Origin: Kordia jejudonensis
GTDB lineage: Bacteria > Bacteroidota > Bacteroidia > Flavobacteriales > Flavobacteriaceae
Direction of reading: 5' to 3'
Assembly (NCBI RefSeq): GCF_001005315.1
Contig: NZ_LBMG01000025.1
Span: 37,966 to 101,965 of the forward strand
Length of the DNA: 64,000 nucleotides
In this document: piece by piece, positions 7,252 to 59,762 of the stretch
How positions within the stretch are numbered: position 1 is the first letter of the stretch
Layout: every line of letters starts with the position of its first letter
Notes under the pieces: generated by a model
The model's input: only the letters and a program-made list of their open reading frames with translations
Database searches by the model: none
Told to the model about the DNA's origin: nothing
Translations under genes and position numbers: made by a program

Positions 7252-7461
7252 ATGAAAAAACAATTGAAAACTTTAGGATTAAAAAAGCACACCATTTCTT
7301 CGTTAGAGGAAACATTATTGAAAGGTGGCGCGCCAACAACACATAGTTTAATTACGATGCACGCAGGTTGCGTAAGTCAGCAAGGCTGTAATCCAGTACC
7401 GCAAGATCCAAGACCACAAACTGGAACTTCTGTCTGCATTAAATGTGGAACTTGGTTGTAA
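7252..7461 (+). CDS. Lanthipeptide-type precursor peptide 1
   Basis: 69 residues. The leader has the Bacteroidota class I lanthipeptide pattern: MKKQ, then LGLKKHTISSL (8-18), ending in GG at 25-26. The core (27-69) has four Cys (40, 46, 62, 65) and eight Ser/Thr, the raw material for thioether rings. The match to the family is by leader pattern. No LanB, LanC, protease or exporter lies nearby, so maturation would be in trans. It has its own promoter and terminator (7482-7509). A disulfide or unmodified peptide is the alternative. Confidence 0.72.
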   Translation: MKKQLKTLGLKKHTISSLEETLLKGGAPTTHSLITMHAGCVSQQGCNPVPQDPRPQTGTSVCIKCGTWL

Positions 7462-7481
7462 AAAATAATACTAAAAACAAT

Positions 7482-7515
7482 GAAAAGCTCCTCAATGTAG
7501 GGGCTTTTCTTTTAG
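7482..7515 (+). terminator. Terminator of precursor 1
   Basis: GAAAAGC (7482-7488) pairs with GCTTTTC (7503-7509). The stem continues partly inward (TCC/GGG region) and is followed by a T-rich stretch. Confidence 0.65.
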
Positions 7516-7608
7516 GGAAAACACGGTAAGAATTCTATTGCTTTCACGGTATCTTCACTATCAATATTCTATGATATTTGCACCATCATAAACCAATAAA
7601 ACAATATC

Positions 7609-7841
7609 ATGAAAAAACAAAAAATCTCTTTGCAATTGCGCAAGCAGAAAATTTCTTCATTAGCTTCAAACCAAACACAAGGAGGAGTGTGTATACGTAT
7701 ACACGCGTAATAGAAAGATGCAGAATTACTGAAATTACACAATGCGGACAAATAACCTGTAATACAGTGATTATTACAACAACAGACCTCACTAACGACA
7801 TTTCTAAAGTATGCTTTCAGAGCAGACTTATGTTGTGCTAA
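7609..7841 (+). pseudogene. Frameshifted lanthipeptide-type precursor peptide 2
   Basis: The leader (MKKQKISLQL, RKQKISSL, GG at 25-26) is intact and almost identical to that of precursor 3. The frame stops at codon 34 (TAA, 7708-7710) after GGVCIRIHA. The -1 frame over the same bases continues to a TAA at 7839-7841 and encodes a typical core with Cys/Thr blocks: RCRITEITQCGQITC, then KVCFQSRLMLC. This resembles precursor 3 (QTYCGIECQTT, ELSRLVC), so it is the displaced core. A one-base deletion or a -1 slip would join the halves. A 16-base perfect palindrome, GTGTATACGTATACAC (7689-7704), lies at the likely break. No classic slippery heptamer was seen. Confidence 0.7.
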
Positions 7842-7963
7842 TCTGATTTTGAGAAAGATTTTTTTCAAAAAAAAGAAGCATTTTTGACGGCTTTACCGTA
7901 ATTCTGTGACAGCTTCTTAATGTATCTTTATGATAAGAATATAACCTAAAAATTAATCGTATC

Positions 7964-8167
7964 ATGAAAAAACAAAAAATCTCATTACAATTAGGGAAAC
8001 AGAAAATTTCGTTAGTTGCTCAAAAAACAGCTTCCGGTGGAAGAAACTATCAAACAAACAATCCGTATCAATGTGTTACATTACAAACGTATTGTGGAAT
8101 TGAATGTCAGACAACACTATTGACAAATCAAACAGGATGCTGCGAACTTTCAAGATTGGTTTGTTAG
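7964..8167 (+). CDS. Lanthipeptide-type precursor peptide 3
   Basis: 67 residues. Leader MKKQKISLQL, GKQKISLV, GG at 25-26. The core (27-67) has six Cys (37, 44, 48, 59, 60, 67) and eight or more Ser/Thr. It is a paralogue of the broken precursor 2: both leaders are nearly the same and both cores show CGxxC followed by a Thr-rich run and an SRLxxC end. The core ends in Cys, as in several lanthipeptides. No enzymes are adjacent. The bidirectional terminator at 8191-8217 is shared with pepD. Confidence 0.72.
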   Translation: MKKQKISLQLGKQKISLVAQKTASGGRNYQTNNPYQCVTLQTYCGIECQTTLLTNQTGCCELSRLVC

Positions 8168-8190
8168 TAAACGCCATTTTAATACAAAAA

Positions 8191-8222
8191 AAAGCTCTTC
8201 AGAAAATGAAGAGCTTTTGTGT
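8191..8222. terminator. Bidirectional terminator between precursor 3 and pepD
   Basis: Perfect arms AAAGCTCTTCA (8191-8201) and TGAAGAGCTTT (8207-8217), with an A-run before and a T-rich stretch after. Confidence 0.88.
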
Positions 8223-8244
8223 TTTTTTGAAATATGTTCAAAAA

Positions 8245-9708
8245 TTATTTCTTTGGAATGTTCTTTAAGATTTCCAATACGTATTTCCAATATTTTTGAG
8301 TAGAAGAAATTCCTGCACGCTCGTCTGGCGAATGTGCTCCACGAATATTTGGTCCAAAACTAATCATTTCCATTTCTGGATAGTTGGTTCCTAAAATCCC
8401 ACATTCCAATCCTGCGTGACAAGCGGCAACATGTGGTTCTTCTCCATTGTTTAATTTCTTATACAAATCGACCATAACAGGCAATATTGAAGCATTCATA
8501 TTTGGTGCCCAACCTGGATACGAACCAGAAAATTCTACCTCGCAACCTGAAAGCTCAAAACTTGCTCTCAACTTTGTAGCCAAGTCCATTTTTCCACTTT
8601 CAACAGAAGAACGCGTTAAACATCCAATCTTAATTTCACCATCTTTTACAATCACTCGCGCAATATTATTTGATGTTTCTACCAAATCTTCAATATCTGG
8701 ACTCATACGAAATACACCGTTGTGCGCAGCATATATAGAACGTGTAATACCTTCTTGCACACCTAACTCTACTACACCTTCTGGCATTTCAGTAGGCGTA
8801 CATTCAATAGCTAAATCAGCTTCTATGCTTGCAAATTCTTTTTTGATTGTATCAATCTGTATGTTCATTTCAAACTCAAACGCTTCTTTGTGTACTTTAT
8901 CAACCACAACGGTTGCTACACTTTCACGTGGAATTGCATTTCGCAAACTTCCGCCATCGATTTCAGCAATGCGTAATCCGTAATTTTCAAATCCATCAAA
9001 TAACAAACGATTCATCAACACATTGGCATTTCCAAATCCTTTATGAATATCCATTCCACTGTGTCCACCTTGCAATCCATTAACCACAATTTTGTAGGCT
9101 ACAACGGCTTCTGGAGTTTCTTCAACAACATACGAACGTCGCGCCGTTACATCAATTCCTCCTGCACAACCAATTCCGATTTCGTCATCTTCTTCCGTAT
9201 CAAGATTCAACAGAATTTCGCCTTTTAGCAAACCGCCTTTGAGTCCCATAGCGCCTGTCATACCTGTTTCTTCGTCAATTGTAAACAATGCTTCCAAAGC
9301 AGGATGCGCAATGTCATTACTTTCTAAAACTGCCATAATGGTGGCTACTCCAAGTCCATTATCGGCTCCAAGTGTCGTGCCTTTAGCTTTTACCCAATCG
9401 CCATCCACAAACATTTCAATTCCTTGCGTATCAAAGTCAAAATCTGTATCTGCATTTTTTTGGTGTACCATATCTAAATGCGATTGCATTACGATCGGTT
9501 TTCTATCTTCCATTCCTGCCGTAGCTGGCTTTTTAATAATCACATTTCCAACTTCATCTATCACAGTTTCCAAGCCTAAATCTTCTCCAAATTTCTTCAT
9601 AAAAGCGATGACGCGTTCTTCCTTTTTGGAAGGTCGTGGTACTGCGTTTAAATCTGCAAATTTATTCCAAAGTCCGTTAGGCTCTAAAGTTCTTATTTCT
9701 TGACTCAT
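8245..9708 (-). CDS. pepD: Aminoacyl-histidine dipeptidase PepD (M20 family)
   Basis: 487 residues, typical for PepD. It is a cytosolic two-zinc peptidase that cleaves Xaa-His dipeptides such as carnosine. Metal-site motifs are QSHLDMVHQK, LGADNGLGVA (bridging Asp), DEETGMTGA (catalytic and ligand Glu) and NLDTEEDDEI. GGHSGMDIHKGFGNAN belongs to the dimerisation/substrate lid. The start is supported by a TACCTTTG box on the same strand (9742-9749). It is a single gene converging on the precursor peptides. Confidence 0.93.
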   Translation of the reverse strand: MSQEIRTLEPNGLWNKFADLNAVPRPSKKEERVIAFMKKFGEDLGLETVIDEVGNVIIKKPATAGMEDRKPIVMQSHLDMVHQKNADTDFDFDTQGIEMFVDGDWVKAKGTTLGADNGLGVATIMAVLESNDIAHPALEALFTIDEETGMTGAMGLKGGLLKGEILLNLDTEEDDEIGIGCAGGIDVTARRSYVVEETPEAVVAYKIVVNGLQGGHSGMDIHKGFGNANVLMNRLLFDGFENYGLRIAEIDGGSLRNAIPRESVATVVVDKVHKEAFEFEMNIQIDTIKKEFASIEADLAIECTPTEMPEGVVELGVQEGITRSIYAAHNGVFRMSPDIEDLVETSNNIARVIVKDGEIKIGCLTRSSVESGKMDLATKLRASFELSGCEVEFSGSYPGWAPNMNASILPVMVDLYKKLNNGEEPHVAACHAGLECGILGTNYPEMEMISFGPNIRGAHSPDERAGISSTQKYWKYVLEILKNIPKK

Positions 9709-9741
9709 TCTATTTTATTTATGGATTGAATTAATTGTTTG

Positions 9742-9749
9742 CAAAGGTA
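9742..9749 (-). promoter_or_regulatory. Candidate -7 box for pepD
   Basis: Minus-strand TACCTTTG, a perfect TAnnTTTG, about 34 bases before the pepD start. No well-spaced -33 box was seen. Confidence 0.45.
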
Positions 9750-9903
9750 AATGTTTGACGGCAAAATTGCGCGCTCTTTTTTACGAAATAGCTTCTAAAC
9801 TATGACATACAATAAAAATATGGTTGCATTTTAGAAATAATGCTATAGTTTTTTTACATTAGCTCAGTATCATTTTCCCGAATGATGTTCAAATGTATTG
9901 CCT

Positions 9904-10977
9904 ATGACCAAGAGAACAAAACTATTGATTGCAGTATCTTTTCCTATACAATTTATTGCTATTAAGATACTTGCAAGATATCCTGAATTTGTAGAAACCT
10001 ATTACAGCAACGGTTTTTATCCTATAATTTCAAAAATTTTTAGAGTAATTTTTGGTTGGATTCCGTTTTCTATCGGAGATATTTTCTATACAATTGCTGG
10101 AATTTTAATCATTCGATACATTTACAAAAACTTTCGTTTAGTTAAAACAGAATATAAGCGAATTTTGTTGGATACCTATATTGTCATTACACTGACGTAT
10201 TTTACTTTTCACTTACTTTGGGGAATGAATTATTACCGATTGCCACTTTATAAATCACTTGATTTAGATCGAAAATACACCACAGAAGAACTTGTAGATT
10301 TTACCGAAAGAGTCATCGCGAAAGCAAACAAAATTCAATATCAAATTACACAAAATGATACGGTAAAAGTTGAAATTCCATACAAAACGAGTGAAATTTT
10401 CGAGAAAACATACAACGGATATGATAATTTTAGCGCAACACAACCACAATTTGCATTTACGCATCGAAGCCTAAAAAAGTCTATCTACAGTGGTTTTTTA
10501 ACAATTATGGGATTTAGCGGATATCTCAATCCGTTTACCAATGAAGCACAAGTCAACAGTAAAATTCCTATGTACAAATTTCCAGTAACGGCAAGTCATG
10601 AAGAAGCGCATCAAATTGGGTTTTCTGCTGAAAATGAAGCGAATTTCATTGGTTGTATGGCTGCCTTACACAATGACGATATGTATTTTAAATATGGCGC
10701 GTACAACTTTATGGCGTGGCACTGTTTGAAAGAGGTTTACAACCGAAATCCTGAGGAATACGAACGCCTAAAAGCAACTTTACATCCTGGAATTCAGAAA
10801 AATTATGATGAAGTTCGTGCGTTTTGGAATGCACATAAAAACCCATTGAAACCGATGTTTAAGTTTACGTTTGATCAGTTTTTAAAGGCAAACAATCAAG
10901 CAAGTGGAATTCAGAGTTACAGCTACGTGGTTTCTTTATTGGTCAATTATGACAAAAAATATCGTATGGATTTCTAA
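9904..10977 (+). CDS. DUF3810 membrane protein, putative zinc metallopeptidase
   Basis: 357 residues from the ATG at 9904; an in-frame TTG two codons earlier is less likely. There are about three membrane helices in the first 110 residues. A soluble part follows with HEEAH (about 232-236), an HExxH zinc-binding motif, and ENEANF downstream supplying a likely third ligand. These are features of the DUF3810 family of Bacteroidota, whose substrate is unknown. The next gene, 33 bases downstream, is a lipoprotein with a possible cysteine-peptidase fold, so the two may act together at the cell surface. Confidence 0.8.
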   Translation: MTKRTKLLIAVSFPIQFIAIKILARYPEFVETYYSNGFYPIISKIFRVIFGWIPFSIGDIFYTIAGILIIRYIYKNFRLVKTEYKRILLDTYIVITLTYFTFHLLWGMNYYRLPLYKSLDLDRKYTTEELVDFTERVIAKANKIQYQITQNDTVKVEIPYKTSEIFEKTYNGYDNFSATQPQFAFTHRSLKKSIYSGFLTIMGFSGYLNPFTNEAQVNSKIPMYKFPVTASHEEAHQIGFSAENEANFIGCMAALHNDDMYFKYGAYNFMAWHCLKEVYNRNPEEYERLKATLHPGIQKNYDEVRAFWNAHKNPLKPMFKFTFDQFLKANNQASGIQSYSYVVSLLVNYDKKYRMDF

Positions 10978-11010
10978 ATACGAAAGCAGTCATTTTTTCG
11001 TTTGTACTAC

Positions 11011-11793
11011 ATGAATAAAGCAATACTTATGTTCGCGTTTTTAGGTTGTATCGCTTGCGCGAAAGAACACAGAACTACTTCAAAATCTGTAACTTCCTCG
11101 CAAAGTGCTGAGCAACCAACGACCATTTCTCCCCATCCGAACGTGCTTGATTCATTAAAGTTAGCGATCAACTTTATACCCAAAGGAAATTACAATACCA
11201 TCAAACAAACTATTCGACATGATCGGGAATACTTTGCAAGACAATTACTGCGAAACGAAGAAAAAGCGCTGGATTCGGCTTCAAAATATATTTACGACAA
11301 ACTCATCAACGAATTAGTGCCACATTGGTATGGAACACCTTGGGATTTTAATGGACATACCGACATTCCAAATAATGGCGAAATTGCCTGTGGTTATTTT
11401 GTTTCCACAACCTTAAAACATCTTGGTTTTCAACTCAATCGTTACAAAATGGCGCAAGAAGGTGGCATGAACGAAGCCATAACATTACAACCGCGTTCGG
11501 AGTTAAAAATTTTCCGAAACATTTCGCAAAGTGAACTTAAAACAGCGTTGACCAAAACGTATACAGATGGCATTTATTTTGTTGGATTGAGCAATCATGT
11601 TGGCTACGTGCTCATCAAAAATAAAGAACTCTACTTTTTACATTCGAGCTATTACGATGACAAAGTACTCATTGAAAAAGCAGAAATTTCTCCTTGTTTT
11701 CAAAGCGATATATATGTCTTTGCAGAAATTACTACGAATCGGAAGCTCATTCAGAAATGGATTCAAAAAACACCAATTCCAATTCATAAATAA
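11011..11793 (+). CDS. Lipoprotein, possible NlpC/P60-like cysteine peptidase
   Basis: 260 residues from the ATG at 11011; a TTG nine bases upstream is also in frame. The lipobox CIAC gives Cys16 as the lipidation site. After a spacer, PWDFNGHTDIP and GEIACGYFVSTTLKHLGF place a Cys (about 127) at the start of a helix. SNHVGYVLIK (His about 196) and LYFLHSSY follow. That order, a helix-leading Cys then a strand His, is what papain-like NlpC/P60 or amidase folds show, but overall identity to a named family was not recognised. The catalytic call is inference from motif order only. Confidence 0.5.
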   Translation: MNKAILMFAFLGCIACAKEHRTTSKSVTSSQSAEQPTTISPHPNVLDSLKLAINFIPKGNYNTIKQTIRHDREYFARQLLRNEEKALDSASKYIYDKLINELVPHWYGTPWDFNGHTDIPNNGEIACGYFVSTTLKHLGFQLNRYKMAQEGGMNEAITLQPRSELKIFRNISQSELKTALTKTYTDGIYFVGLSNHVGYVLIKNKELYFLHSSYYDDKVLIEKAEISPCFQSDIYVFAEITTNRKLIQKWIQKTPIPIHK

Positions 11794-11838
11794 ACGTTAA
11801 AAAATCCACAACAAAACCAATAAAGTCCATTGATACCT

Positions 11839-11846
11839 TATCTTTA
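11839..11846 (+). promoter_or_regulatory. Candidate -7 box for the amidohydrolase pair
   Basis: TATCTTTA, one mismatch to TAnnTTTG, 40 bases before the ATG at 11887. Confidence 0.35.
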
Positions 11847-11886
11847 GAGTTAAAACTAGATCAACCTAAATTTAACACTAAAAGCA

Positions 11887-14850
11887 ATGAGAAAATCGTA
11901 TTTGCTGCTGTTATTAGTTTTATGTAGCCTACCAACATTTGCTCAGGATTACTTTCCTAAAAATGATGGTGTAAAAACAGAACAACATACCATAACAGCA
12001 TTCACAAACGCTAAAATTTACGTCACGCCCACTCAAGTGATTGACAATGGAACTCTTTTAATACAAGATGGTAAAGTATTACAATCGGGAGCCAACATTT
12101 CTATTCCAAAAAATGCTACTGTAGTAGATTTGACAGGAAAAAGTGTGTATCCTTCTTTTATAGATCCGTTTTCAGATTTTGGACTTAAGAAACCCAAAAG
12201 AAACGGAAATTGGAGAGCTGCTCCACAATACGACGCTGGTCGTGAAGGATATTACTGGAACGATCATATTCGTCCAGAAACAAATCCAATACAAAGTTTC
12301 GTGTTTGACACCAAAAAAGCAACCAACTTATTAAAAGCTGGTTTTGGAACTGTAAACACACATTTACAAGATGGAATTGTCCGCGGAAACGGAATGCTCG
12401 TTGCACTAAATACTAAAGATGACAACAGTATTCGAATTTTAGACAATCGCTCAGCGCAATACTTATCATATCAAAAAAGTAATGCTTCAAAACAATCGTA
12501 TCCTACGTCGCTTATGGGAAGCATGGCATTAATTCGTCAAATGTATCACGATGCAGATTGGTACGCAAAAGGAAATGCTAAACGACAAGATTTAGCGCTA
12601 GAAGCACTGATAGCCAATAAAAACTTAGTACAAATATTCCATTCTGGAAATAAACATAATAGTATTAAAACGGATGCTATTGGAGACGATTTTGGAATTC
12701 AATATGTATTAGTTGGCGATGGAACTGAATACGAAAATATAAATGCAATGAAAGCTACAAATGCGGCTTTTATTATTCCGATTAACTTTCCAAAAGCCTA
12801 CGATGTTTCTGATCCGTATGCGGCAGATCTTGTAGAATTAGAAGCGATGAAACACTGGAATCAATCGCCTTCAAATCCGAAAGCATTGGCGGATAAAGGA
12901 ATTATGTTTAGCTTTACAATGCATGATACAAAAACACCTAAGGATTTTAAAAACAATCTACTAAAGGCAATTTCGTATGGCTTAGATAAAACAAAAGCTT
13001 TGGAGGCTTTAACGACAATTCCTGCAAAATTATTGAAGCAAAATGATAAAATTGGAACGCTTCAAAAAGGAAAACAAGCTAACTTTTTAATTACTTCTGG
13101 TGATATCTTCGAAAAGAAAACCATCATTTATGAAAATTGGGTTCAAGGGAATCCGACGGTTTTTAACGATAAATCTATGAAAGACGTTCGCGGAAAATAT
13201 GATGTTACAGTTGCTGGAGATACGTACAATGTTACAATTTCAGGCACACCAGAAAAACTTAAAGCACAAGTACAAAAAAATGCTTTAAAACTAGGTTCTA
13301 AAATTTCATACAAAGACAACTGGTTGCAATTGCAATTTACAACACCTGACACGACAAAAACTGAGTTTATTCGTTTGATTTCTCGTGTTAATACTGCTAC
13401 TTATTTTTCTGGAAAAGCCATTTTAGCCAATGGAGTTGAAACTACATTTACGGCAACACAAAAAGAAGTATCTACCACAAAAGCCAAGGATGATAAAAAG
13501 GAAAATACACCAACTGTAATGCCTATCTCCTATCCTAATGGCGCATTTGGCTCAAAAACACTACCGCAACAAGAAGATGTATTGTTTAGAAATGCAACCG
13601 TTTGGACGAATGAAAAAGATGGTATTCTGCAAAATACAGATGTATTGGTAAAAGATGGTAAAATAGTTCGCATTGGCAAAAACCTCAGCGCAGGAAATGC
13701 TAAAGTGATTGATGCTACTGGAAAACACTTAACAGCTGGAGTTATTGACGAACATTCGCATATCGCGGCTTTTGCTATTAATGAAGCAGGACACAACTCA
13801 ACTGCCGAAGTAAATATGGCAGATGTAGTTGATCCGGAAGATGTAGACATTTATAGAAACTTAGCTGGTGGTGTTACTACAATTCAATTATTGCACGGTT
13901 CTGCCAATCCGATTGGTGGACGCTCCGCAATTTTAAGCTTACGTTGGGGACGCACAGCTGACGAAATGCTGTTCAAAAATGCAGATGGATTCATCAAATT
14001 TGCTTTAGGAGAAAATGTAAAACAAAGCAACTGGGGCGATACCGAAACGACACGTTTTCCACAAACGCGTATGGGAGTTGAGCAAGTATTTACCGATTAT
14101 TTCCAGAGAGCAAAAGAATACGAAGCACAAAAGAAAACAGGAAAGTATCGTTATGATATAGAAATGGAAACGATTCTTGAAATTATAAACAGTAAGCGTT
14201 TTGTTTCCTGTCATTCATATGTTCAAAGTGAAATAAATATGTTGATGAAAGTGGCAAACAAGTTTGGATTTACAATCAACACGTTTACGCATATTTTAGA
14301 AGGTTATAAAGTGGCTGATAAAATGAAAGAACATGGTGCTGGTGGATCAACATTCTCAGATTGGTGGGCTTACAAATATGAAGTAAATGATGCAATTCCG
14401 TACAATGGCGCTATTATGCATAGTCAAGGTGTTGTTGTAGCGTTCAACTCGGATGATGCTGAAATGTCTCGTAGATTGAATCAAGAAGCGGCAAAAGCAG
14501 TAAAATACGGAGGTGTTTCAGAAGAAGAAGCATGGAAGTTTGTGACCTTGAATCCTGCAAAATTATTACATATTGATGATAAAGTAGGAAGTATCAAAAC
14601 TGGAAAACAGGCAGATTTAGTTTTGTGGAATACACATCCAATGTCAGTATATGCAAAAGCAGAAAAAACAATGATTGAAGGAACATTTTATTTTGATATA
14701 GAACGTGATGTAGCATTGCGAAGACAAATTAAAGAAGAACGAAACGAGTTGATAAATATGATGCTGTTAGAAAAGAACAAAGGCATGAAAACACAACCCG
14801 CAAAGAAGAAAGATAAAGTACATAATCACTGTGATACCGTAAACTTTTAA
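11887..14850 (+). CDS. Exported double-domain amidohydrolase
   Basis: 987 residues with a cleavable signal peptide (LPTFAQ). Two amidohydrolase-like halves are fused. The C-terminal half keeps the metal-site pattern: HSH at 623-625 after AGVIDE, later histidines at about 776 (SCHSYVQ) and 802 (FTHILEG), and Asp856 in FNSDDAEM. In the N-terminal half the HxH position reads FIDPFSDFG, so the metal ligands are lost and that half is probably structural. The family cleaves amide bonds of cyclic or N-acyl substrates; the substrate is unknown. It is followed after 11 bases by a related single-domain gene. Confidence 0.85.
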   Translation: MRKSYLLLLLVLCSLPTFAQDYFPKNDGVKTEQHTITAFTNAKIYVTPTQVIDNGTLLIQDGKVLQSGANISIPKNATVVDLTGKSVYPSFIDPFSDFGLKKPKRNGNWRAAPQYDAGREGYYWNDHIRPETNPIQSFVFDTKKATNLLKAGFGTVNTHLQDGIVRGNGMLVALNTKDDNSIRILDNRSAQYLSYQKSNASKQSYPTSLMGSMALIRQMYHDADWYAKGNAKRQDLALEALIANKNLVQIFHSGNKHNSIKTDAIGDDFGIQYVLVGDGTEYENINAMKATNAAFIIPINFPKAYDVSDPYAADLVELEAMKHWNQSPSNPKALADKGIMFSFTMHDTKTPKDFKNNLLKAISYGLDKTKALEALTTIPAKLLKQNDKIGTLQKGKQANFLITSGDIFEKKTIIYENWVQGNPTVFNDKSMKDVRGKYDVTVAGDTYNVTISGTPEKLKAQVQKNALKLGSKISYKDNWLQLQFTTPDTTKTEFIRLISRVNTATYFSGKAILANGVETTFTATQKEVSTTKAKDDKKENTPTVMPISYPNGAFGSKTLPQQEDVLFRNATVWTNEKDGILQNTDVLVKDGKIVRIGKNLSAGNAKVIDATGKHLTAGVIDEHSHIAAFAINEAGHNSTAEVNMADVVDPEDVDIYRNLAGGVTTIQLLHGSANPIGGRSAILSLRWGRTADEMLFKNADGFIKFALGENVKQSNWGDTETTRFPQTRMGVEQVFTDYFQRAKEYEAQKKTGKYRYDIEMETILEIINSKRFVSCHSYVQSEINMLMKVANKFGFTINTFTHILEGYKVADKMKEHGAGGSTFSDWWAYKYEVNDAIPYNGAIMHSQGVVVAFNSDDAEMSRRLNQEAAKAVKYGGVSEEEAWKFVTLNPAKLLHIDDKVGSIKTGKQADLVLWNTHPMSVYAKAEKTMIEGTFYFDIERDVALRRQIKEERNELINMMLLEKNKGMKTQPAKKKDKVHNHCDTVNF

Positions 14851-20718: not shown

Positions 20719-20904
20719 CTATTGCGGACAACTAAATAAAAGCAAACATCTGCCGCCTCCATTTGCAAATGGTACACAAACCCAACAATCTGGCGTTCCG
20801 CAATCTGAAGTTTGCGAACAAGGACCAAATCCACCTCCTGTAATTCCTCGTTGCTCGTTTTTACTTAAAATTTGAATTTCTGAAATGTTTAAAATCGTTT
20901 TCAT
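20719..20904 (-). CDS. Double-glycine leader peptide with six-cysteine core
   Basis: 61 residues. The leader MKTILNISEIQILSKNEQRG ends in a GG motif (23-24), as in peptides cleaved by C39-peptidase ABC exporters. The core has six Cys (29, 35, 40, 43, 53, 59) in the pattern C-x5-C-x4-C-x2-C-x9-C-x5-C. With only four Ser/Thr it looks like a small disulfide-knotted peptide, not a lanthipeptide. It could be a bacteriocin or signal peptide. No exporter or immunity gene is next to it. The start follows from the leader pattern. Confidence 0.65.
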   Translation of the reverse strand: MKTILNISEIQILSKNEQRGITGGGFGPCSQTSDCGTPDCWVCVPFANGGGRCLLLFSCPQ

Positions 20905-23390: not shown

Positions 23391-23636
23391 TTATTCTGTA
23401 GTAGTGGCAGGTACAGGCGTCGATGTTGTAACACCAGTCATCGTACATTCTGTAGCATCTGTCGTTCTACAAATACGCGGATCTGTAACGTATTCTGTAA
23501 GAATCTTAACCGTTGTAATAATAACATATGTAGTAGTTCCGACAGAATCCGTACCACCTTGAATGTGTTGTTCTTGTAAATTGGAAATGACTTGTTTTCT
23601 TAATTTAAGATTGTTGCTAAAGTCTCTTTTTTTCAT
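23391..23636 (-). CDS. Lanthipeptide-type precursor peptide 4 (Thr-rich, two Cys)
   Basis: 81 residues. Leader MKKRDFSNNL, KLRKQVISNL, GG at 27-28. The core (29-81) is very rich in Thr/Ser (over 20) but has only two Cys (56 and 64), so at most two thioether rings could form. The surplus of Thr would give dehydrobutyrines or stay unmodified. It shares GGTD and RIC with precursor 5 directly upstream, so the two are tandem paralogues in one transcript (22-base gap). No modifying enzyme is adjacent. Confidence 0.68.
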   Translation of the reverse strand: MKKRDFSNNLKLRKQVISNLQEQHIQGGTDSVGTTTYVIITTVKILTEYVTDPRICRTTDATECTMTGVTTSTPVPATTTE

Positions 23637-23658: not shown

Positions 23659-23910
23659 TTAATTTGAACAAGCTTCCGTATGACAAGCGTCCATACATGT
23701 TGGCGGAATAGTAGTAACTCTAGTGGTATCTATAGGACAAACATCTTCTGTATCGCCGCCTGTACAAATACGTTTATCTGTCCATTTAATGGTTGTAATT
23801 TGAATAGGATCAGACACTGCATCGGTTCCACCAAAAAGGGTGCGTTGCTGTAAATTGGAAATTACTTTCTTCCCTAAATTAAGTCTATGAGTGAAGTCTT
23901 TTTTTTTCAT
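23659..23910 (-). CDS. Lanthipeptide-type precursor peptide 5
   Basis: 83 residues. Leader MKKKDFTHRL, NLGKKVISNL, GG at 27-28. The core (29-83) has five Cys (49, 58, 72, 76, 81) and many Thr. It is the first gene of a two-gene unit with precursor 4 and has a perfect promoter (23943-23972, minus strand). Same leader family as the other precursors in this window, with a clearly different core. Confidence 0.72.
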   Translation of the reverse strand: MKKKDFTHRLNLGKKVISNLQQRTLFGGTDAVSDPIQITTIKWTDKRICTGGDTEDVCPIDTTRVTTIPPTCMDACHTEACSN

Positions 23911-30893: not shown

Positions 30894-31375
30894 CGTGAGT
30901 TAGATATAAGTTTATTATAGTAAAATTTCTAACTCATATTTAGAAATATCAATAAACACTTGATTTTCATTTAATTATTTACTATTTAGCTCATATGTTT
31001 TCTATTTTATTAAATAAGAATTCGTGAATCTTCGATGTCTTTGCTCGCACAAAGAAAAGTAACAAAAGAAAGTGCGCTTTTAGCTCATGTCATTTATATT
31101 TTAAATTATGGTATTCATGAATGTAAACATTTCCAGAGGTATTTTTAGTTTTTCTTTTTGGAAAAAAACTAAAACCGCATAGATTTTTCTAAATTTTCTC
31201 CAAGGATTCGAAAATTTTTAACGAAAAATCTCTGCTATACTGCGGAAAAGTTAAAAAATACTCTTGACTTTTATATCGAACTGACGTTAAATAACTTTTT
31301 ATGGATTTGTCAATTCATTCTGCTTTTTATTCAAAAAAAAGATACGCTATTTACTAATTATAAACGCTAGTAACG

Positions 31376-31556: not shown

Positions 31557-31772
31557 ATGAAAAAGAAAAAAACTACATTATTACCGCTAAACAAAAAGTC
31601 TATTTCAAAACTTCAAAACACTGCTATTTCAGGTGGAAATGCTGAAAATTTCGGGTATTTAACAAGTATAGGCTATTGTAAAACAAGATGCTGCTCATCT
31701 AAATACTATCAAGATTGTACTGTTACGTACGAAGCGTGCATTACAGAACCAAGATTTTGTGGCATGTTTTAA
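31557..31772 (+). CDS. Lanthipeptide-type precursor peptide 6
   Basis: 71 residues. Leader MKKKKTTLLPLNKKSISKL, GG at 26-27. The core (28-71) has six Cys (41, 45, 46, 54, 61, 68) and the local pattern GYCKTRCCSS. It is the paralogue of precursor 7, 237 bases downstream: both leaders have LNKKSISK and both cores have YCKxxCC. Even the upstream DNA is duplicated. No modifying enzyme lies nearby. Confidence 0.72.
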   Translation: MKKKKTTLLPLNKKSISKLQNTAISGGNAENFGYLTSIGYCKTRCCSSKYYQDCTVTYEACITEPRFCGMF

Positions 31773-32009
31773 GAAATAAGACTACGTACAAAGTAATATG
31801 CCCGATAAATCGGACTGGATTCAATTTTCTATACTGATTGAAAATAAGCATCGTACCTAGAAAGGTAGACAAAATCATGTACAATGTATATCTGCACTAA
31901 TTTTCTTGTTACCCTATACATTTTCTCTTAAGTAATCATTTATCGGGGTTTACTTACTGTTTGCTATTATTTCATTCTTTCGTTGTATAAACAATTAAAT
32001 AATCACATT

Positions 32010-32183
32010 ATGAAAAAGAAAGCTACATTACTAGCACTAAACAAAAAATCAATTTCGAAGTTTCAAAATGAAGCTGCTTTAGGAGGCGCTTATTACACAA
32101 ACGAATTGGTTACGAGCTTCCGCTATTGTAAATCAAAATGTTGCACTCAGGGCAACACGTGTTGCGGAAGTACTTATCATTAA
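32010..32183 (+). CDS. Lanthipeptide-type precursor peptide 7
   Basis: 57 residues from the ATG at 32010; an in-frame upstream start at 31983 is not supported because the leader pattern begins at MKKKATLLAL. Leader LNKKSISKF, GG at 25-26. The core (27-57) has five Cys (40, 44, 45, 51, 52) and RYCKSKCC, matching precursor 6 at YCKxxCC. The core is shorter and ends in STYH. It is a tandem copy with duplicated upstream DNA, followed by a strong hairpin terminator. Confidence 0.72.
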   Translation: MKKKATLLALNKKSISKFQNEAALGGAYYTNELVTSFRYCKSKCCTQGNTCCGSTYH

Positions 32184-32238: not shown

Positions 32239-32279
32239 TATCGATCAAATCTTTTAAAGGTTTGATCGATATTTTTTTT
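32239..32279 (+). terminator. Intrinsic terminator after precursor 7
   Basis: Perfect arms TATCGATCAAA (32239-32249) and TTTGATCGATA (32261-32271), with extra pairing in the loop and a run of eight T. Confidence 0.88.
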
Positions 32280-53085: not shown

Positions 53086-53093
53086 CAAAACTA
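53086..53093 (-). promoter_or_regulatory. -7 box of mazG
   Basis: Minus-strand TAGTTTTG, a perfect TAnnTTTG, 22 bases before the mazG start. Confidence 0.5.
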
Positions 53094-53643: not shown

Positions 53644-53644
53644 A

Positions 53645-54408: not shown

Positions 54409-54466
54409 ATCTCATATATTAAAAAGTGGCACGCTTTATGCCTTTAGGAGTACAAAATGGTACGGA

Positions 54467-54500
54467 TTTGCAATTTTGCTAAAACTATTCCGTATTTTTG
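54467..54500 (+). promoter_or_regulatory. Promoter of the small exported protein gene
   Basis: TTTG (54467-54470), 22 bases, TATTTTTG (54493-54500), a perfect TTTG-N22-TAnnTTTG, 22 bases before the ATG at 54523. Confidence 0.65.
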
Positions 54501-54522
54501 AACTATTAAACGTATAATCATA

Positions 54523-55020: not shown

Positions 55021-55042
55021 TATCTACGCATAGAATACAATA

Positions 55043-55073
55043 AAAAAATCCAGCAATTTGCTGGATTTTTTTT
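55043..55073. terminator. Bidirectional terminator
   Basis: Perfect arms AAAAATCCAGCA (55044-55055) and TGCTGGATTTTT (55059-55070), with A- and T-runs. It serves the exported protein gene and the DUF5606 gene. Confidence 0.9.
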
Positions 55074-55096
55074 GACTAAACTTATTCGGTGTGTTT

Positions 55097-55510
55097 TTAT
55101 TCTTCTTCGTTAGAAGCTGCTGCAGTAAAATCGGTCATTCCTTTAGAATGCAATAAATTGTACCACTGAATTACCTTTTTAATATCACTTGGATATACTC
55201 TATCTTGATCGTAATCTGGTAAAACTTCTTCAAAGTAATTCGCTAATACTGTTTTAGATTCTTTATGATTTACTGAAGTTGCTGCGCCATTTTCTTTGGC
55301 TTTTACTTTTTCTAATACTTCTGCTAATGGAATTTCTTCTGTATTTGTGTAAATAGCAATTTCAGATAGTAAACTTACATTGTGACGTAAACTTACTGAT
55401 ATCTTTTTTCCGTCAGCTAAAGATTCTGCCACAAAACCATTTCGGGTTTGGGTTTTCAATTCATAAAGTCCTGGTTTCCCAGAGATAGCTAATATTTTTT
55501 CTAAACTCAT
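55097..55510 (-). CDS. DUF5606 domain protein
   Basis: 137 residues. The N-terminal half MSLEKILAISGKPGLYELK and GFVAESLADGKKISVS is a small beta-barrel-like domain; the C-terminal half is helical. Members are conserved across Bacteroidota beside def and ruvX. Function is unknown. A perfect -7 box lies at 55538-55545 on the same strand. Confidence 0.8.
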   Translation of the reverse strand: MSLEKILAISGKPGLYELKTQTRNGFVAESLADGKKISVSLRHNVSLLSEIAIYTNTEEIPLAEVLEKVKAKENGAATSVNHKESKTVLANYFEEVLPDYDQDRVYPSDIKKVIQWYNLLHSKGMTDFTAAASNEEE

Positions 55511-55537
55511 ACTGTATTTTTTCTAACTTTAGGATGG

Positions 55538-55545
55538 CAAATATA
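55538..55545 (-). promoter_or_regulatory. -7 box of the DUF5606 gene
   Basis: Minus-strand TATATTTG, a perfect TAnnTTTG, 27 bases before the DUF5606 start. Confidence 0.5.
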
Positions 55546-55597
55546 CATATTGTACCTATTGCATCACTTTTTTTAACTTAGTTTTTATATTTTTTAC

Positions 55598-56188
55598 TTA
55601 ACGTATTTTTTTAGCATCAGGAAAACGCATTTTGTAATCTACTTTAATGCGTCCACGAGAAATGTTTGCCAAGCGTCCTTTTAATAAACGACGTTTTAAC
55701 GGAGATAGTTTATCTGTAAACAAAATTCCTTCAATATGATCGTATTCGTGTTGAATAACTCTCGCTGCCAACCCATCATATTCTTCTACATGCTTTTCAA
55801 AGTTTTCATCCATGTATTCAATTTTGATACTTTCCTGACGGAATACATCTTCGCGAATATCTGGAATACTCAAACAACCTTCATTAAATACCCAAGGATC
55901 ACCATCGCGCTCTACAATTTTTGCATTGATAAACACTTTTTTCATGCCTTCTAATTGCTTTCTTTGTTCAGCATCAAGTTCCTCATCTTCTGCAAAACCA
56001 GTAGCATCTACCATAAATAAACGGATTGGTAAACCTATTTGTGGAGCAGCCAAACCAACGCCATATGCATTGTACATGGTTTCAAACATATTTTCGAGTA
56101 ACGTATCTAAGTTTGGATAATCTGGTGTAATATCCGTTGCTACTTTTCGTAAAACTGGATCGCCAAAAGCGACAATTGGTAATATCAT
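55598..56188 (-). CDS. def: Peptide deformylase
   Basis: 196 residues. It removes the formyl group from the N-terminal Met of new proteins. All three motifs are present: GVGLAAPQIG, EGCLSIP with the metal Cys, and HEYDHIEG with the two metal His and catalytic Glu. An insertion after the first motif (ATGFAEDEELDAEQRKQLEG) is longer than in E. coli. It starts 7 bases after ruvX, so they are in one operon. Confidence 0.96.
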   Translation of the reverse strand: MILPIVAFGDPVLRKVATDITPDYPNLDTLLENMFETMYNAYGVGLAAPQIGLPIRLFMVDATGFAEDEELDAEQRKQLEGMKKVFINAKIVERDGDPWVFNEGCLSIPDIREDVFRQESIKIEYMDENFEKHVEEYDGLAARVIQHEYDHIEGILFTDKLSPLKRRLLKGRLANISRGRIKVDYKMRFPDAKKIR

Positions 56189-56195
56189 ATTCGTA

Positions 56196-56603
56196 TTATT
56201 TGTATAGATAAGATTGCAAAATTATGGTTGCACTTATTTCATCTATTAAACCTTTATTTTGACGTTGTTTCTTTTTTAGTCCGCTATCAATCATGGTTTG
56301 AAACGCCATTTTTGATGTAAAACGCTCGTCAACACGTTTTATTGGAATTGTCGGAATTGCCTTGGTTAGCAAACGTATAAATTCTTTGATTAACACTTCA
56401 CTTGATGAAGCTTCATAATTCATCTGTTTTGGTTCTCCTACTAAGAACAATTCTACATTTTCTTTCGCTACATATTCTTTTAAAAAATTGATCAAATCGT
56501 GCGTTCGAACTGTCGTTAAACCAGATGCAATTAGTTGCATTTCATCGGTTACGGCAATTCCCGTTCGTTTCTTTCCATAATCAATTGCAAGAATGCGAGC
56601 CAT
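56196..56603 (-). CDS. ruvX: Putative pre-16S rRNA nuclease / Holliday junction resolvase RuvX (YqgF)
   Basis: 135 residues from the ATG at 56603; an upstream in-frame start would add five residues before the first strand. RNase H fold: ILAIDYGKKRTGIAVTD (first catalytic Asp), FLVGEPKQMN (Glu) and VDERFTSKMA (Asp-Glu). E. coli YqgF trims the 5' end of 16S rRNA. A minus-strand TATTTTTG box is at 56616-56623. Followed by def. Confidence 0.93.
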   Translation of the reverse strand: MARILAIDYGKKRTGIAVTDEMQLIASGLTTVRTHDLINFLKEYVAKENVELFLVGEPKQMNYEASSSEVLIKEFIRLLTKAIPTIPIKRVDERFTSKMAFQTMIDSGLKKKQRQNKGLIDEISATIILQSYLYK

Positions 56604-56615
56604 ATAAAATTTTGG

Positions 56616-56623
56616 CAAAAATA
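56616..56623 (-). promoter_or_regulatory. -7 box of ruvX-def
   Basis: Minus-strand TATTTTTG, a perfect TAnnTTTG, 12 bases before the ruvX start. Confidence 0.45.
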
Positions 56624-56721
56624 AGGTTTATATTTCAATGTGTATAAAAATTAAAAGAATTATTACTGTAAGGATGGGAATTGGGTTTAATTAGACAGCT
56701 TAGACACACAGGACTTGCTAG

Positions 56722-57228
56722 ATGTATTTCGTTACGGAAAACCGTATTGAAATCAATTTCAGATCAAGTATTTTGATGAAATATAATTTCATATTTATGG
56801 TACAAACAATAGAACTAGAAGAAGTAGTAATTTACATAACAGAACTAAAAAGAAAAACAGAGCCAAAACCACTGGAATGCAACTATTGGAAATTTACCAT
56901 TAAAAATATTAGTAACCACGAGATATCATCTGTAGTATTTCATTTTAAAAGTTTACAAAAAGAAATTACCAAACATAAGTATACAAGAAGTACTGTGAAT
57001 CTTGAACCCAATGAAATTGTAGAATTATCCGTTGTTCCTAATAGCAAGAAATATATTGAGATTTTACAATCTATTTATATTGAAAAAAATAATTATCCTG
57101 CCAAAGTTTACGATCAAAATGTTATTCTTGGAAAACGAAAAGAAATCATTCCTCTTTGGTATTCTGCTATTTGGTATACGATATATATCGCGATATTTTT
57201 CTATTTATGTAAGTACTTCTTTAGTTGA
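56722..57228 (+). CDS. Hypothetical protein with C-terminal membrane helix
   Basis: Up to 168 residues. The start is uncertain: ATG at 56722, 56776 or 56797, the last giving 143 residues beginning MVQTIELEEVVIYITEL. The middle is beta-rich (TIKNISNHEISSVVFHFK), like a small immunoglobulin-like or DUF-type domain, followed by one membrane helix near the end (SAIWYTIYIAIFFYLCKYFF). No family recognised. Gene-level confidence is moderate. Confidence 0.5.
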   Translation: MYFVTENRIEINFRSSILMKYNFIFMVQTIELEEVVIYITELKRKTEPKPLECNYWKFTIKNISNHEISSVVFHFKSLQKEITKHKYTRSTVNLEPNEIVELSVVPNSKKYIEILQSIYIEKNNYPAKVYDQNVILGKRKEIIPLWYSAIWYTIYIAIFFYLCKYFFS

Positions 57229-57314
57229 GAATAAAAATTTAAATTATTTTCTAAAATCACTATTCATTTCAAATAAAAATAAGAACTTGGTATTTCTATA
57301 TTTAACGATAAATC

Positions 57315-58484
57315 TTGCTAAAAACTGCTCGCATACATTCACTCGATTCTTTACGCGCCATCATGATGCTGCTTGGTTTGGTATTGCATTCCGCATTGAC
57401 GTATAATGTAACGTATCATGGAAGTGTTTGGAGTATAAAAGATACAGCATCCACAACTATTGTAACCGATTTTTTAGTATTGATGATTCACTCGTTTCGC
57501 ATGCCCGTCTTTTTTTTAATTGCAGGATTTTTTGGCGCAATGCTGTTTTATGAACGAAAACCATGGAAAATGATTCACAATAGAATTTCGCGTATTGTGT
57601 TTCCATTCATCGTATTTTTAATCATCCTTACTCCTATAGTGCAGTTTTCTTTTGGTTATGCTAGCAAAATTTTTGAAGGAAATGAAAACGCGTTGACAAC
57701 TAGCTTAGCGCCTTTTTCAGATTTCTACTTTTATATACCCAAAAGCACTTCGCATTTGTGGTTTTTATATTATTTAATCTACGCGACAGCTTTTGCAGTA
57801 GTACTAGCATTTTTATTGAAGCAAACACCAAAAGTAACCTCTAAAATAAAAAGAATTGGCAATTGGATTTTTCAAAAACCGCTTGTTCGAATTTTGGTCT
57901 TTTCAGCAATTACCTTTATACTTTTAACACTGTTACAAACGCCAATGATTGCTTCCTCTACAGCATTAGTGCCAGACACAAACACGTTTGTACATTATAC
58001 TTCTTTCTACCTTGTCGGATGGATCTTATATACGTCCAAGGAACATTTGGAAACACTTAAAAAATATGATTGGTTAAGCACCATTCTTGCCGTTTTACTA
58101 GTGATGAGTCAAGGAGTTATTCTTGAATATACAAATCTTGGTTTGAAACCGAATAGTTTTTCTTTTCTACTAATTTCTTTTAATTCACTGACTGTTTGGT
58201 TGTTTATCTTCGGAATTACAGGCCTTTTTATTCGGTATGGAAGCAACTATTCAAAGCGAATGCGTTACATTTCTGATGCTTCATATTGGGTATATTTAAT
58301 TCATTTGCCACTGACAGCTTTGTTTCCGATACTATTGAGAAACATACCAATTGGTGGAATTCCAAAATTTTTGATCGTTACCACAGCCACAGGAATTGTT
58401 TGTTTTGTAACATATCATTTTTGTGTACGAAATACATTTATTGGAAAGTTTTTGAATGGAAGAAAATATCCTTCACAACGTTAA
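57315..58484 (+). CDS. Acyltransferase 3 / OpgC-like membrane protein
   Basis: 389 residues with about ten membrane helices. It starts RIHSLDSLRAIMMLLGLVLHSAL, the signature of acyltransferase-3 enzymes, with the catalytic His in VLHS. MPVFFLIAGFFGAML, RISRIVFPFIVFL and YWVYLIHLPLTALFP also fit. The start codon is TTG, bounded by an upstream stop with no ATG before the conserved motif. Such enzymes O-acylate surface sugars or glucans; the substrate is unknown. Confidence 0.82.
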   Translation: MLKTARIHSLDSLRAIMMLLGLVLHSALTYNVTYHGSVWSIKDTASTTIVTDFLVLMIHSFRMPVFFLIAGFFGAMLFYERKPWKMIHNRISRIVFPFIVFLIILTPIVQFSFGYASKIFEGNENALTTSLAPFSDFYFYIPKSTSHLWFLYYLIYATAFAVVLAFLLKQTPKVTSKIKRIGNWIFQKPLVRILVFSAITFILLTLLQTPMIASSTALVPDTNTFVHYTSFYLVGWILYTSKEHLETLKKYDWLSTILAVLLVMSQGVILEYTNLGLKPNSFSFLLISFNSLTVWLFIFGITGLFIRYGSNYSKRMRYISDASYWVYLIHLPLTALFPILLRNIPIGGIPKFLIVTTATGIVCFVTYHFCVRNTFIGKFLNGRKYPSQR

Positions 58485-58560
58485 TCGCTCTTATTCCTTC
58501 CATTTTTCTTTTGGATTAATAATTATTCTATATGAGGAAACTGAATTTCTACGCTTCCCG

Positions 58561-58568
58561 TAATTTTG
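58561..58568 (+). promoter_or_regulatory. -7 box of the SDR gene
   Basis: TAATTTTG, a perfect TAnnTTTG, 21 bases before the ATG at 58590. Confidence 0.5.
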
Positions 58569-58589
58569 TAAAAAATAAATAACTCATAC

Positions 58590-59366
58590 ATGAAGAAGAC
58601 AGCGTTAATTACAGGAGCAAGCAGTGGAATTGGAAAAGAATTTGCAAAAATACATGCAGAAAAAGGCGGCGATTTAATTATTGTGGCTCGAAGCGAAGAC
58701 AAACTCAACGAATTAAAAAATGAACTTCAACAAGCGCATAATGTGCAGGTAATTGTTATTGCAAAAGACCTCACAGATACAAACGCTCCGAAAGAAATAT
58801 ACGAAGAACTCAACGCTGCAAATATTGAAGTAGATTATCTGATTAACAATGCAGGTTTTGGTGGAATTGGTCGTTTTGACAAACGTGATTTGGAGAAAGA
58901 CCTTTCAATGATTCAGTTAAACATTACTGCGTTAACTGCTTTGACACACTATTTTCTACAAGATTTTGTCGCAAGAAATACAGGGAAAATATTGAATGTT
59001 TCTTCTACGGCGAGTTTTATGCCTGGTCCGATGCAAGCGGTTTATTATGCCACAAAAGCATATGTAACTTCGTTTAGCAATGCCATTGCGGAAGAACTGC
59101 ACGATACAAACATTTCTGTGACAACTTTAATGCCTGGTGCTACCGAAACTGACTTTGGAAAAACTTCAGGAATGGACAAAACAGAATTGTTTGAAAATAC
59201 GGCAAGTCCAAGAACAGTGGCAGAAGATGGTTATAATTCGATGCTAGAAAGCGATTTAGATGTCATATCTGGAATTACATTTTCTCAAAAAATACTCATG
59301 AAGTTATTACCATTTATTCCTAAGAAAACTATGTTGAAACGCATTCGAAAAATGCAAGAAGTATAA
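58590..59366 (+). CDS. Short-chain dehydrogenase/reductase
   Basis: 258 residues. Cofactor loop TGASSGIGKEFA (8-19), LINNAGFGGIG, catalytic Ser in NVSSTASF, and YYATKAYV with the catalytic Tyr and Lys. The C-terminus (FSQKILMKLLPFIPKKTMLKRIRK) is basic and amphipathic, as in the DltE/YqjQ-like SDRs. NADPH preference is suggested by the Arg in VARSEDKL. The substrate is unknown. Single gene, followed by the inverted-repeat element at 59405-59524. Confidence 0.9.
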   Translation: MKKTALITGASSGIGKEFAKIHAEKGGDLIIVARSEDKLNELKNELQQAHNVQVIVIAKDLTDTNAPKEIYEELNAANIEVDYLINNAGFGGIGRFDKRDLEKDLSMIQLNITALTALTHYFLQDFVARNTGKILNVSSTASFMPGPMQAVYYATKAYVTSFSNAIAEELHDTNISVTTLMPGATETDFGKTSGMDKTELFENTASPRTVAEDGYNSMLESDLDVISGITFSQKILMKLLPFIPKKTMLKRIRKMQEV

Positions 59367-59404
59367 CAACATTATCTTTCAAAAGATAAAAAACATATAA
59401 AAAA

Positions 59405-59524
59405 GAGACTGTCCAAAAAGTTAATTTTTCGTAGTACCGAACTTCATTCGGTTTCTCATAATCATTGAAAATCAAGATAATGAGATTCAAGATAACGATT
59501 TTAATTAGTTTTTTAAACAGTCGC
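59405..59524. mobile_element. MITE-like inverted-repeat element (about 120 bases, no ORF)
   Basis: The left end GAGACTGTCCAAAAAGTTAA and the reverse complement of the right end, GCGACTGTTTAAAAAACTAA, match over about 27 bases with a few changes (59405-59431 against 59496-59524). The match extends into flanking A/T bases. Inside is a hairpin (ACCGAA/TTCGGT). GAGACTGTCC-like ends are typical of Bacteroidota insertion sequences. No transposase fragment was seen; it may also stop transcription from both sides. Confidence 0.5.
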
Positions 59525-59546
59525 TTTTATGTTTAAATTGGTATGA

Positions 59547-59762
59547 CTATTGTGCACCACCTATAACATCTTCCAAACATTTTATTGATGAGCATATTGC
59601 TCCATTTGTACAGTCGATAGTTGGGCAAGATAAACATGACCAACATGAAATTGCTGTTATTGTTACACTTGCAGCAGCTCCTGCCTTGATGTTTTTCTTA
59701 CTTAAATCAGAAATTGATCTTTTGTTTAATTTTAGATTTTTTTTAATGTCTCTTTTTTTCAT
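59547..59762 (-). CDS. Lanthipeptide-type precursor peptide 8
   Basis: 71 residues from the ATG at 59762; a longer in-frame start would add 25 residues in front of the leader motif. Leader MKKRDIKKNL, KLNKRSISDL, then KAG at 26-28 where the others have GG. The core has six Cys (40, 43, 46, 51, 57, 62) in the run CWSCLSCPTIDC, plus many Ser/Thr. No enzymes nearby. Same start context ATCATGAAAAA as precursors 1-5. Confidence 0.7.
   Translation of the reverse strand: MKKRDIKKNLKLNKRSISDLSKKNIKAGAAASVTITAISCWSCLSCPTIDCTNGAICSSIKCLEDVIGGAQ

Follow-up and report, generated by a model that had tools for sequence, protein, structure and literature searches.

What becomes of peptide precursors whose genes have no processing enzymes beside them is the question raised by a 64,000-nucleotide stretch of the Kordia jejudonensis genome (hereafter the window; contig C136, positions 37966-101965, of an assembly of 5,356,465 bases in 217 contigs with a tool figure of 99.99% completeness), which carries eight scattered genes for lanthipeptide-type precursors. 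A sequence-only reading of the window had proposed that one enzyme set elsewhere in the genome acts on a scattered library of substrates. Our analysis supports this proposal, with at least 223 dispersed precursor genes and a single operon for LanB, LanC and a C39 exporter. Since one LanB and one C39 exporter are found at a single site, one enzyme set likely processes all precursors. We consider it quite probable, judging from gene content, that the library peptides are dehydrated and cyclised in trans by one LanB with its LanC, and are then cut at the GG site and exported by one C39 transporter. The anatomy of the genes is a direct observation, from which we infer that the dispersed peptides are modified in trans.

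The precursor genes of the window, and the hairpins that follow two of the groups, are as follows (aa, amino acids; dN and dS, nonsynonymous and synonymous substitution rates).

7252..7461, + strand: lanthipeptide-type precursor, 69 aa, 4 core Cys; precursors stand at the same place in five other Kordia, and dN < dS in four ortholog pairs.
7609..7710, + strand: short precursor, 33 aa, 1 core Cys, probably frame-disrupted; longer relatives with the same leader type stand at the locus in several other Kordia.
7964..8167, + strand: lanthipeptide-type precursor, 67 aa, 6 core Cys; supported by leader alignment, Kordia synteny and dN/dS.
8190..8218, + strand: terminator-like hairpin following the precursors at 7.2-8.2 kb; counted on both strands, the region has 5 such matches vs. 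a shuffle mean of 0.6.
23391..23636, - strand: lanthipeptide-type precursor, 81 aa, 2 Cys, over the NF038153 cut-off; supported by profile match, Kordia synteny and dN/dS.
23659..23910, - strand: lanthipeptide-type precursor, 83 aa, 5 Cys; supported by profile match and Kordia synteny, with core dN 0.07 vs. dS 1.69 to the ortholog in isolate 396.
31557..31772, + strand: lanthipeptide-type precursor, 71 aa, 6 Cys; supported by profile match, Kordia synteny and dN/dS.
32010..32183, + strand: lanthipeptide-type precursor, 57 aa, 5 Cys; supported by leader regular expression and profile match; the frame is also open from a TTG further upstream, at 31983.
32239..32271, + strand: terminator-like hairpin following the two precursors at 31.5-32.2 kb; the region has 3 such matches vs. 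a shuffle mean of 0.5.
59547..59762, - strand: lanthipeptide-type precursor, 71 aa, 6 Cys, leader end AG; supported by leader regular expression and alignment, with the palindrome ATTTATAAAT 88 bp upstream.

All eight open reading frames (ORFs) lie where the sequence-only reading had placed them, and the common leader that it described is real: nine positions are invariant in an alignment of the eight peptides (M1, K2, K3, L8, L10, K12, I15, S16 and G26), and the leader ends in GG in seven, AG being confined to the peptide at 59547. A loose regular expression for the leader matches 14 ORFs of the window, all eight precursors included, and a stricter one matches exactly the eight. The NCBIfam model NF038153, which describes class I lanthipeptide leaders, finds seven of the eight at E<=1. 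The cores had been credited with 2-6 Cys; the upper bound holds, and the lower one has to be reduced to one, the single core Cys of 7609. The latter gene looks frame-disrupted because another frame runs on into a core-like tail that bears Cys. As had been claimed, maturation genes are missing nearby: the window contig has no match to PF04738 (LanB), PF05147 (LanC), PF03412 (C39) or PF13186 (SPASM), other families of enzymes for ribosomally synthesized and post-translationally modified peptides (RiPPs) not having been searched.

The window holds a small share of a library that is about 28 times larger. A hidden Markov model (HMM) of the leader finds 222 ORFs at 10 bits or more in 937 kb of the genome, and a further ORF, scoring 8.7 bits, was retained on visual inspection. 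The resulting 223 complete precursor genes occupy 121 loci on 55 contigs, 66 of the loci having a single gene. As the HMM was built on 182 members, decoys and not members serve as the control, and these reach 10 bits in 1 of 7111 reversed peptides and in none of 5162 ORFs from reversed DNA. Likewise, the stricter regular expression matches 128 ORFs in 621 kb vs. none in five Markov-1 resamplings and none in reversed DNA. Chance similarity of the leaders is ruled out by these decoy sets, and the genome-wide search for the leader profile thus bears out the family that had been postulated from the window.

The genes were gathered in steps. The first collection comprised 186 ORFs (128 by regular expression, 51 by leader HMM and 7 by eye) from 70 stretches around hits and LanC places, together with the window and the stretch containing the enzyme operon (L002). 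A profile of 60 leaders, in a search that like each of the profile searches scored 150 candidates at most, scored 150 of 349, all 150 at E<=1, and new places were then added. A second profile, made from 46 leaders of members unscored by the first, gives 147 places, of which 146 were already in the set; the remaining one, C178:28088, was known from an earlier NF038153 search. The leaders used for the two profiles have one common consensus. It should be noted that C178:28088, near a contig end, and C207:66955 were left out of the 223, neither yielding a complete ORF from an ATG. Since the second profile brought no unseen place, and 12 hit-free stretches of 20 kb, hand-picked on large contigs, contain no precursors, the set is near complete. 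Only open ORFs were admitted, so broken copies are under-counted. NF038153 itself has at least 146 matches in the genome at E<=10 (150 of 220 candidates scored); at the same threshold 5 of 14 control genomes have matches, none over the cut-off, and some weak matches are due to chance.

The enzymes that the window lacks are found at one place in the genome, in agreement with the expectation that a LanB/LanC/C39-exporter operon would be present elsewhere. PF04738 has a single match, at C143:51044-53011, and within one stretch of 12.6 kb Pfam recognizes the N- and C-terminal parts of LanB, LanC, a C39-ABC protein, HlyD, an AraC-type regulator and an ECF sigma factor. The operon runs in the order ECF sigma factor, TPR protein, LanC, LanB, LanB_C, AraC-type regulator with TPR, three precursors, HlyD and LanT. 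These three, whose leaders also have the LxLxK motif, are the only ones of the 223 inside the operon. The glutamylation and elimination domains of LanB are separate proteins: PF04738 scores 506 bits on a protein of 751 aa, and PF14028 scores 247 bits on the adjacent protein of 305 aa. The former matches NisB (residues 37-743 of 751) and 9g04 (residues 4-743). The operon LanC (PF05147, 158 bits) has WCYG and CHG motifs at 263 and 314, which we take to be its zinc ligands. The TPR protein stands where, we assume, an anti-sigma factor often sits, its role being suggested by position only. LanT is the only one of three C39 matches in the genome (two of them over the cut-off) with both a Cys in the peptidase domain and a named ABC part. 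The other two (539 and 520 aa) were rejected as exporters since, by eye, they have neither a Cys in the C39-like part nor an ABC part, and one exporter of the C39 kind therefore remains.

Five LanC-like proteins are encoded in the genome, three of them with WC(Y/H)G and CHG ligand motifs; those on C146 and C156 are without the motifs and were set aside. The stand-alone LanC on C160 has the ligand motifs, lies beside a nucleotidyltransferase and has precursors on both sides (stretch L039, C160:15000-33500, at 10246-12466). The LanC on C2 (stretch L038, C2:1-19000, at 542-7522) is found with a HopA1-family protein and an APH-like phosphotransferase, a locus that we take to be class V-like. Next to this locus are genes for a subtilase-type peptidase and for a 478-aa protein built of Cys-rich repeats (GPTGTQGCTQ...), the latter possibly a giant substrate with multiple cores.

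The steps of the proposed pathway follow from what is known of the enzyme families. The leader would be the docking tag for LanB/LanC and LanT; LanB would glutamylate Ser and Thr, the separate LanB_C protein would eliminate the glutamate, and LanC would then add Cys to give lanthionine or methyllanthionine. Finally, LanT would cut after GG and export the product. Expression of the operon may depend on the flanking ECF sigma factor and on the AraC-type regulator.

Leader and core can be separated in 219 of the 223, at GG (204), AG (9) or GA (6). The 219 leaders are 23% Lys and have one Cys in 5901 residues, and the cores, 7-73 aa long with a median of 40, contain 11.6% Cys, 12.4% Thr and 1.5% Lys. 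No two cores are the same. Loose blastp linkage groups them into 148 families, 122 with a single member, and stricter linkage into 172, of which 147 are single. Lanthionine rings require Ser or Thr as well as Cys; both are present in 218 of the 219 cores, and 1068 of 1072 Cys have a Ser or Thr on the N-terminal side. Just upstream of the start, 222 precursor genes resemble one another in sequence context. On contig C79, six precursors lie in tandem (stretch L047, 505-2837, - strand), and four of them share GGFQSWTGTAEPCF after the leader and then diverge; this array is a likely place to study core diversification.

The same operon recurs in eight Kordia genomes. LanB has 97% identity to its counterpart in the uncultured Kordia isolate 396; for seven further Kordia records, among them K. 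algicida, K. zhangzhouensis, K. periserrulae and K. aestuariivivens, the figure is 87-92%. The operon order is the same in all eight loci. Identities over these loci are 96-98% for LanT, 87-97% for LanB, 80-91% for the sigma factor, 72-92% for HlyD and 52-73% for the TPR protein. In seven loci no other operon protein is as well conserved as LanT, and in the eighth it shares first place; the C39 exporter (stretch L002, 2257-4464) is thus kept far better than HlyD or the sigma factor, as if held by many substrates. All 9 Kordia genomes searched have just one LanB, and so have 9 of 10 other Flavobacteriaceae, with one genome not covered. Within 10 kb of LanB, the stretch considered in this comparison, 11 non-Kordia Flavobacteriaceae loci have 1-7 precursors; in a twelfth, short record (L126) there is none near LanB. 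At E<=0.001 and with 150 candidates scored at most, NF038153 has at least 10-30 matches per Kordia genome vs. 0-6 in ten others. In the family as a whole such matches are rare: of 149 genomes drawn from it, five have any at this threshold, our own with at least 18 (49 of 153 candidates scored), and four others with 1-3 each. In K. algicida, at least 123 precursor places (150 of 242 candidates scored; profile matches without an ORF-by-ORF check) are spread over 83 loci along one 5.03-Mb scaffold.

In order to follow single loci, we compared the window with other Kordia. The M20 peptidase locus has three precursors in our genome (one disrupted), three in isolate 396, two in K. algicida, three in K. 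aestuariivivens, three in K. zhangzhouensis and one in K. periserrulae. In the gap between RelA/SpoT and Fur there are two, with four in isolate 396, five in K. aestuariivivens, one in K. periserrulae and none in K. zhangzhouensis or K. algicida. The 31-kb locus has two, with one in isolate 396, one in K. zhangzhouensis, two in K. periserrulae and none in K. algicida or K. aestuariivivens. The SDR-dapD gap, which contains 59547 in our genome, is about 230 bp long in K. algicida and has no precursor; the SDR gene was not found in the compared stretches of the other four Kordia. One extra 10-bit match in this comparison was judged spurious. For five of the eight window genes, ortholog pairs could be compared, and in all eight pairs dN is lower than dS for leader and core alike, several dS values being above 1 and thus rough. 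Precursor number varies at the same sites while dN < dS; the loci therefore come and go, and the tested peptides are kept by selection. The library likely grows by local tandem duplication, with genes also gained and lost at many places in the chromosome. We give a little better than an even chance to the broader proposal that Kordia has the largest natural one-enzyme, many-substrate lanthipeptide library, exceeding all those for which we found a published count. In it, more than 220 different thioether peptides would be made by one class I set that evolved independently of the class II prochlorosins, and, as single cores are retained from species to species, each peptide would have a job of its own and would not be random chemistry.

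Other explanations have to be weighed against processing by a single enzyme set. The leader could be an export tag only, most peptides being unmodified or disulfide-bonded and LanB/LanC acting on the three operon precursors alone. The GG end of 204 of 219 leaders would by itself be in keeping with a C39 exporter, the best conserved operon protein is LanT with its 96-98% identity, and even Cys counts (121 of 219 cores) are slightly above odd ones. Odd counts are nevertheless common (98 of 219), which is a poor fit to disulfide pairing, and the spacing of Ser/Thr and Cys is not random. In 213 non-redundant cores compared with shuffled cores, Ser/Thr is over-represented at distances of 3-6 residues on the N-terminal side of Cys and 2-3 residues on the C-terminal side, with z about 5 at -3 and -5 and z of 10 at +2, values that are inflated by repeats inside cores. 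Furthermore, dispersed and operon leaders both have LxLxK, the motif described for class I LanAs of Bacteroidetes (PMC7268733). Export of most peptides without modification by LanB/LanC is rather unlikely in our estimate. It is also improbable, in our view, that several RiPP systems share the leader and that the class I set, the LanC-nucleotidyltransferase pair and radical-SAM enzymes each take subsets. Such a pair lies amid precursors on C160 and has been noted for Kordia, for which peptides modified by radical-SAM enzymes are listed as well (PMC11118758), and one of three SPASM matches lies near precursors on C145; but three SPASM proteins are too few to act as neighbours of 121 loci, each of the nine Kordia genomes has one LanB, and the leaders of the two profiles give one consensus. 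That the system was formerly clustered and most of the present copies are its decaying remains, only a few of them being made, we hold to be highly improbable: the disrupted look of 7609 and the varying presence and number of precursors at the same site would fit decay, whereas dN < dS in all eight ortholog pairs, the common start context of 222 genes and the retention of Cys plus Ser/Thr in 218 of 219 cores do not.

Several observations weigh against the processing of the whole library by the one LanB/LanC/LanT set. The NF038153 cut-off is passed by one of the eight window peptides, 23391, and by 27 of the 146 matches genome-wide, and the count of precursors partly rests on an HMM trained on its own members. 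Besides the slight excess of even Cys counts and the inflated z-scores, Ser/Thr is depleted at -7, -2, +1, +4 and +5 from Cys. The palindrome ATTTATAAAT, described below, is absent from the upstream regions of all 51 precursors examined in other Kordia. Two LanC proteins with ligand motifs, on C160 and C2, are encoded away from the operon, so a different route may exist for some peptides, and the SPASM-domain protein on C145 is about 5 kb from precursors. The most likely failure of the proposal is that subsets of the peptides go to the C160 LanC-nucleotidyltransferase pair or stay unmodified.

The closest parallels are the prochlorosins and the SyncA peptides, in which one promiscuous synthetase (ProcM or SyncM) acts on precursors with alike leaders and diverse cores, many of their genes being distant from the enzyme. 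Many prochlorosin precursors are encoded far from LanM (PMC7268733), up to 79 SyncA substrates are found in one strain (PMC9872173), and 484 putative ProcA/SyncA precursors were counted over the genomes studied (PMC10783134). Dispersal of this kind is seen in Kordia, with three of 223 precursors in the operon and, in K. algicida, 2 of the at least 123 places within 50 kb of LanB. The enzymes and leaders differ: prochlorosins and SyncA have a class II LanM and Nif11-type leaders, whereas Kordia has a class I LanB in two proteins plus LanC, an LxLxK...GG leader and at least 223 precursors. The open frames of the five LanC-like matches are 408-654 aa long and none is LanM-sized (NCBIfam TIGR03897 has 932 positions), and no Pfam match to a Nif11-type leader is obtained for any of the eight window peptides at E<=1. 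With the operon LanC a separate protein beside LanB and no LanM-sized frame, the system does not classify as class II LanM.

In its parts, the system resembles the class I lanthipeptides of Bacteroidota, with their LxLxKx5L leader motif, GG site and C39 protease (PMC7268733), and LanB, LanC and LanT lie in one operon; pinensins are the isolated example named in that survey. There, precursors and C39 proteases lie in corresponding clusters, whereas in Kordia nearly all precursors lie outside the enzyme operon, and mining from the enzyme cluster would meet only 3 of 223. A survey of ocean genomes with TrRiPP describes up to 176 RiPP precursors in one Bacteroidota genome, with Kordia as exemplar and lanthipeptide and radical-SAM classes (PMC11118758). 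The wealth of Kordia precursors is common to that work and ours, and its accessible text does not contain the single LanB/LanC/C39 set, the synteny or the selection. That wealth is thus already published; the single class I set, the dispersal and the locus turnover are added here. Five further papers (PMC10734526, PMC7477175, PMC13101523, PMC9248904 and PMC12328550) give cluster counts or enzyme reviews and, in the text accessible, do not name a dispersed class I library. No published description of such a library under a single enzyme set was found, supplements, bioRxiv and most subscription papers lying outside the search. The Kordia system can be read as a class I counterpart of the prochlorosins. 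If so, combinatorial lanthipeptide biosynthesis would have arisen twice, as class II in cyanobacteria and as class I in a marine genus of Bacteroidota, and the LanB/LanC pair would be pre-selected for tolerance of over 200 substrates, which would be useful in peptide engineering. As tested orthologous cores are conserved between species, the purpose of such libraries could be tested peptide by peptide.

Some features of the window concern the expression of the precursors. The claim that most of them have their own promoter or terminator stands in part. E. coli-type promoter matches number 5, 4, 3 and 5 at the four window loci vs. shuffle means of 4.4, 4.0, 9.1 and 5.2 and are thus not in excess, in a scan that covers the E. 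coli-type consensus and not the promoters of Bacteroidota. Terminator-like hairpins number 5, 0, 3 and 1 vs. 0.6, 0.4, 0.5 and 0.2, the counts of 5 and 3 being a clear excess at two of the four loci. The sequence TAnnTTTG, which we take to be the Bacteroidota -7 motif, is not enriched upstream (18.5% of 222 precursors vs. 26.8% of 366 other genes). In a free motif search, T-runs and the start context dominate.

Of 222 precursors, 17 have the exact palindrome ATTTATAAAT upstream vs. none of 366 other genes, for example at about window position 59850 (- strand), upstream of 59547, and 16 of its 22 intergenic copies are upstream of precursors vs. 2.3 expected by area. The shorter TTTATAAA is found with 15 of 51 precursors of other Kordia vs. 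18 of 224 of our own. A trained matrix at 9 bits matches 15 of 70 and 29 of 152 held-out precursors; among 363 other genes it has 14 and 27 matches, and among shuffled upstream regions 1 and 4. We regard a shared regulatory palindrome as a lead only.

An interspersed intergenic repeat lies at 31028-31300 of the window, just upstream of the 31557 precursor. It has 19 blast matches in the part of our own genome that was searched, some of them two fragments of the same copy or hits in stretches that overlap. Copies are numerous in K. algicida and K. aestuariivivens and fewer in other Kordia. A role of the repeat as gene carrier is not concluded. In K. algicida, with 37 of the copies used, a repeat is found within 1, 2 and 5 kb of 3, 7 and 13 of the 83 precursor loci, respectively, vs. 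1.2, 2.4 and 5.9 expected (p = 0.11, 0.011 and 0.0055), which is a weak tendency towards proximity.

A ninth peptide with a GG end, also reported from the window, is most likely the Cys-rich ORF 20719-20904 (- strand), which contains MKTILNISEIQILSKNEQRGITGGG and has a leader unlike the eight; it matches no NCBIfam family at E<=0.001. The two proteins whose C39-like part has no Cys (L169 and L170) may belong with the family of this peptide. Finally, the nine window neighbours of precursors that were scanned are a cyclophilin/FKBP-type isomerase, an M20 peptidase, RelA/SpoT, Fur, an endonuclease/phosphatase-family protein, DUF6122, a WbqC-like protein, an SDR and a dapD-type transferase.

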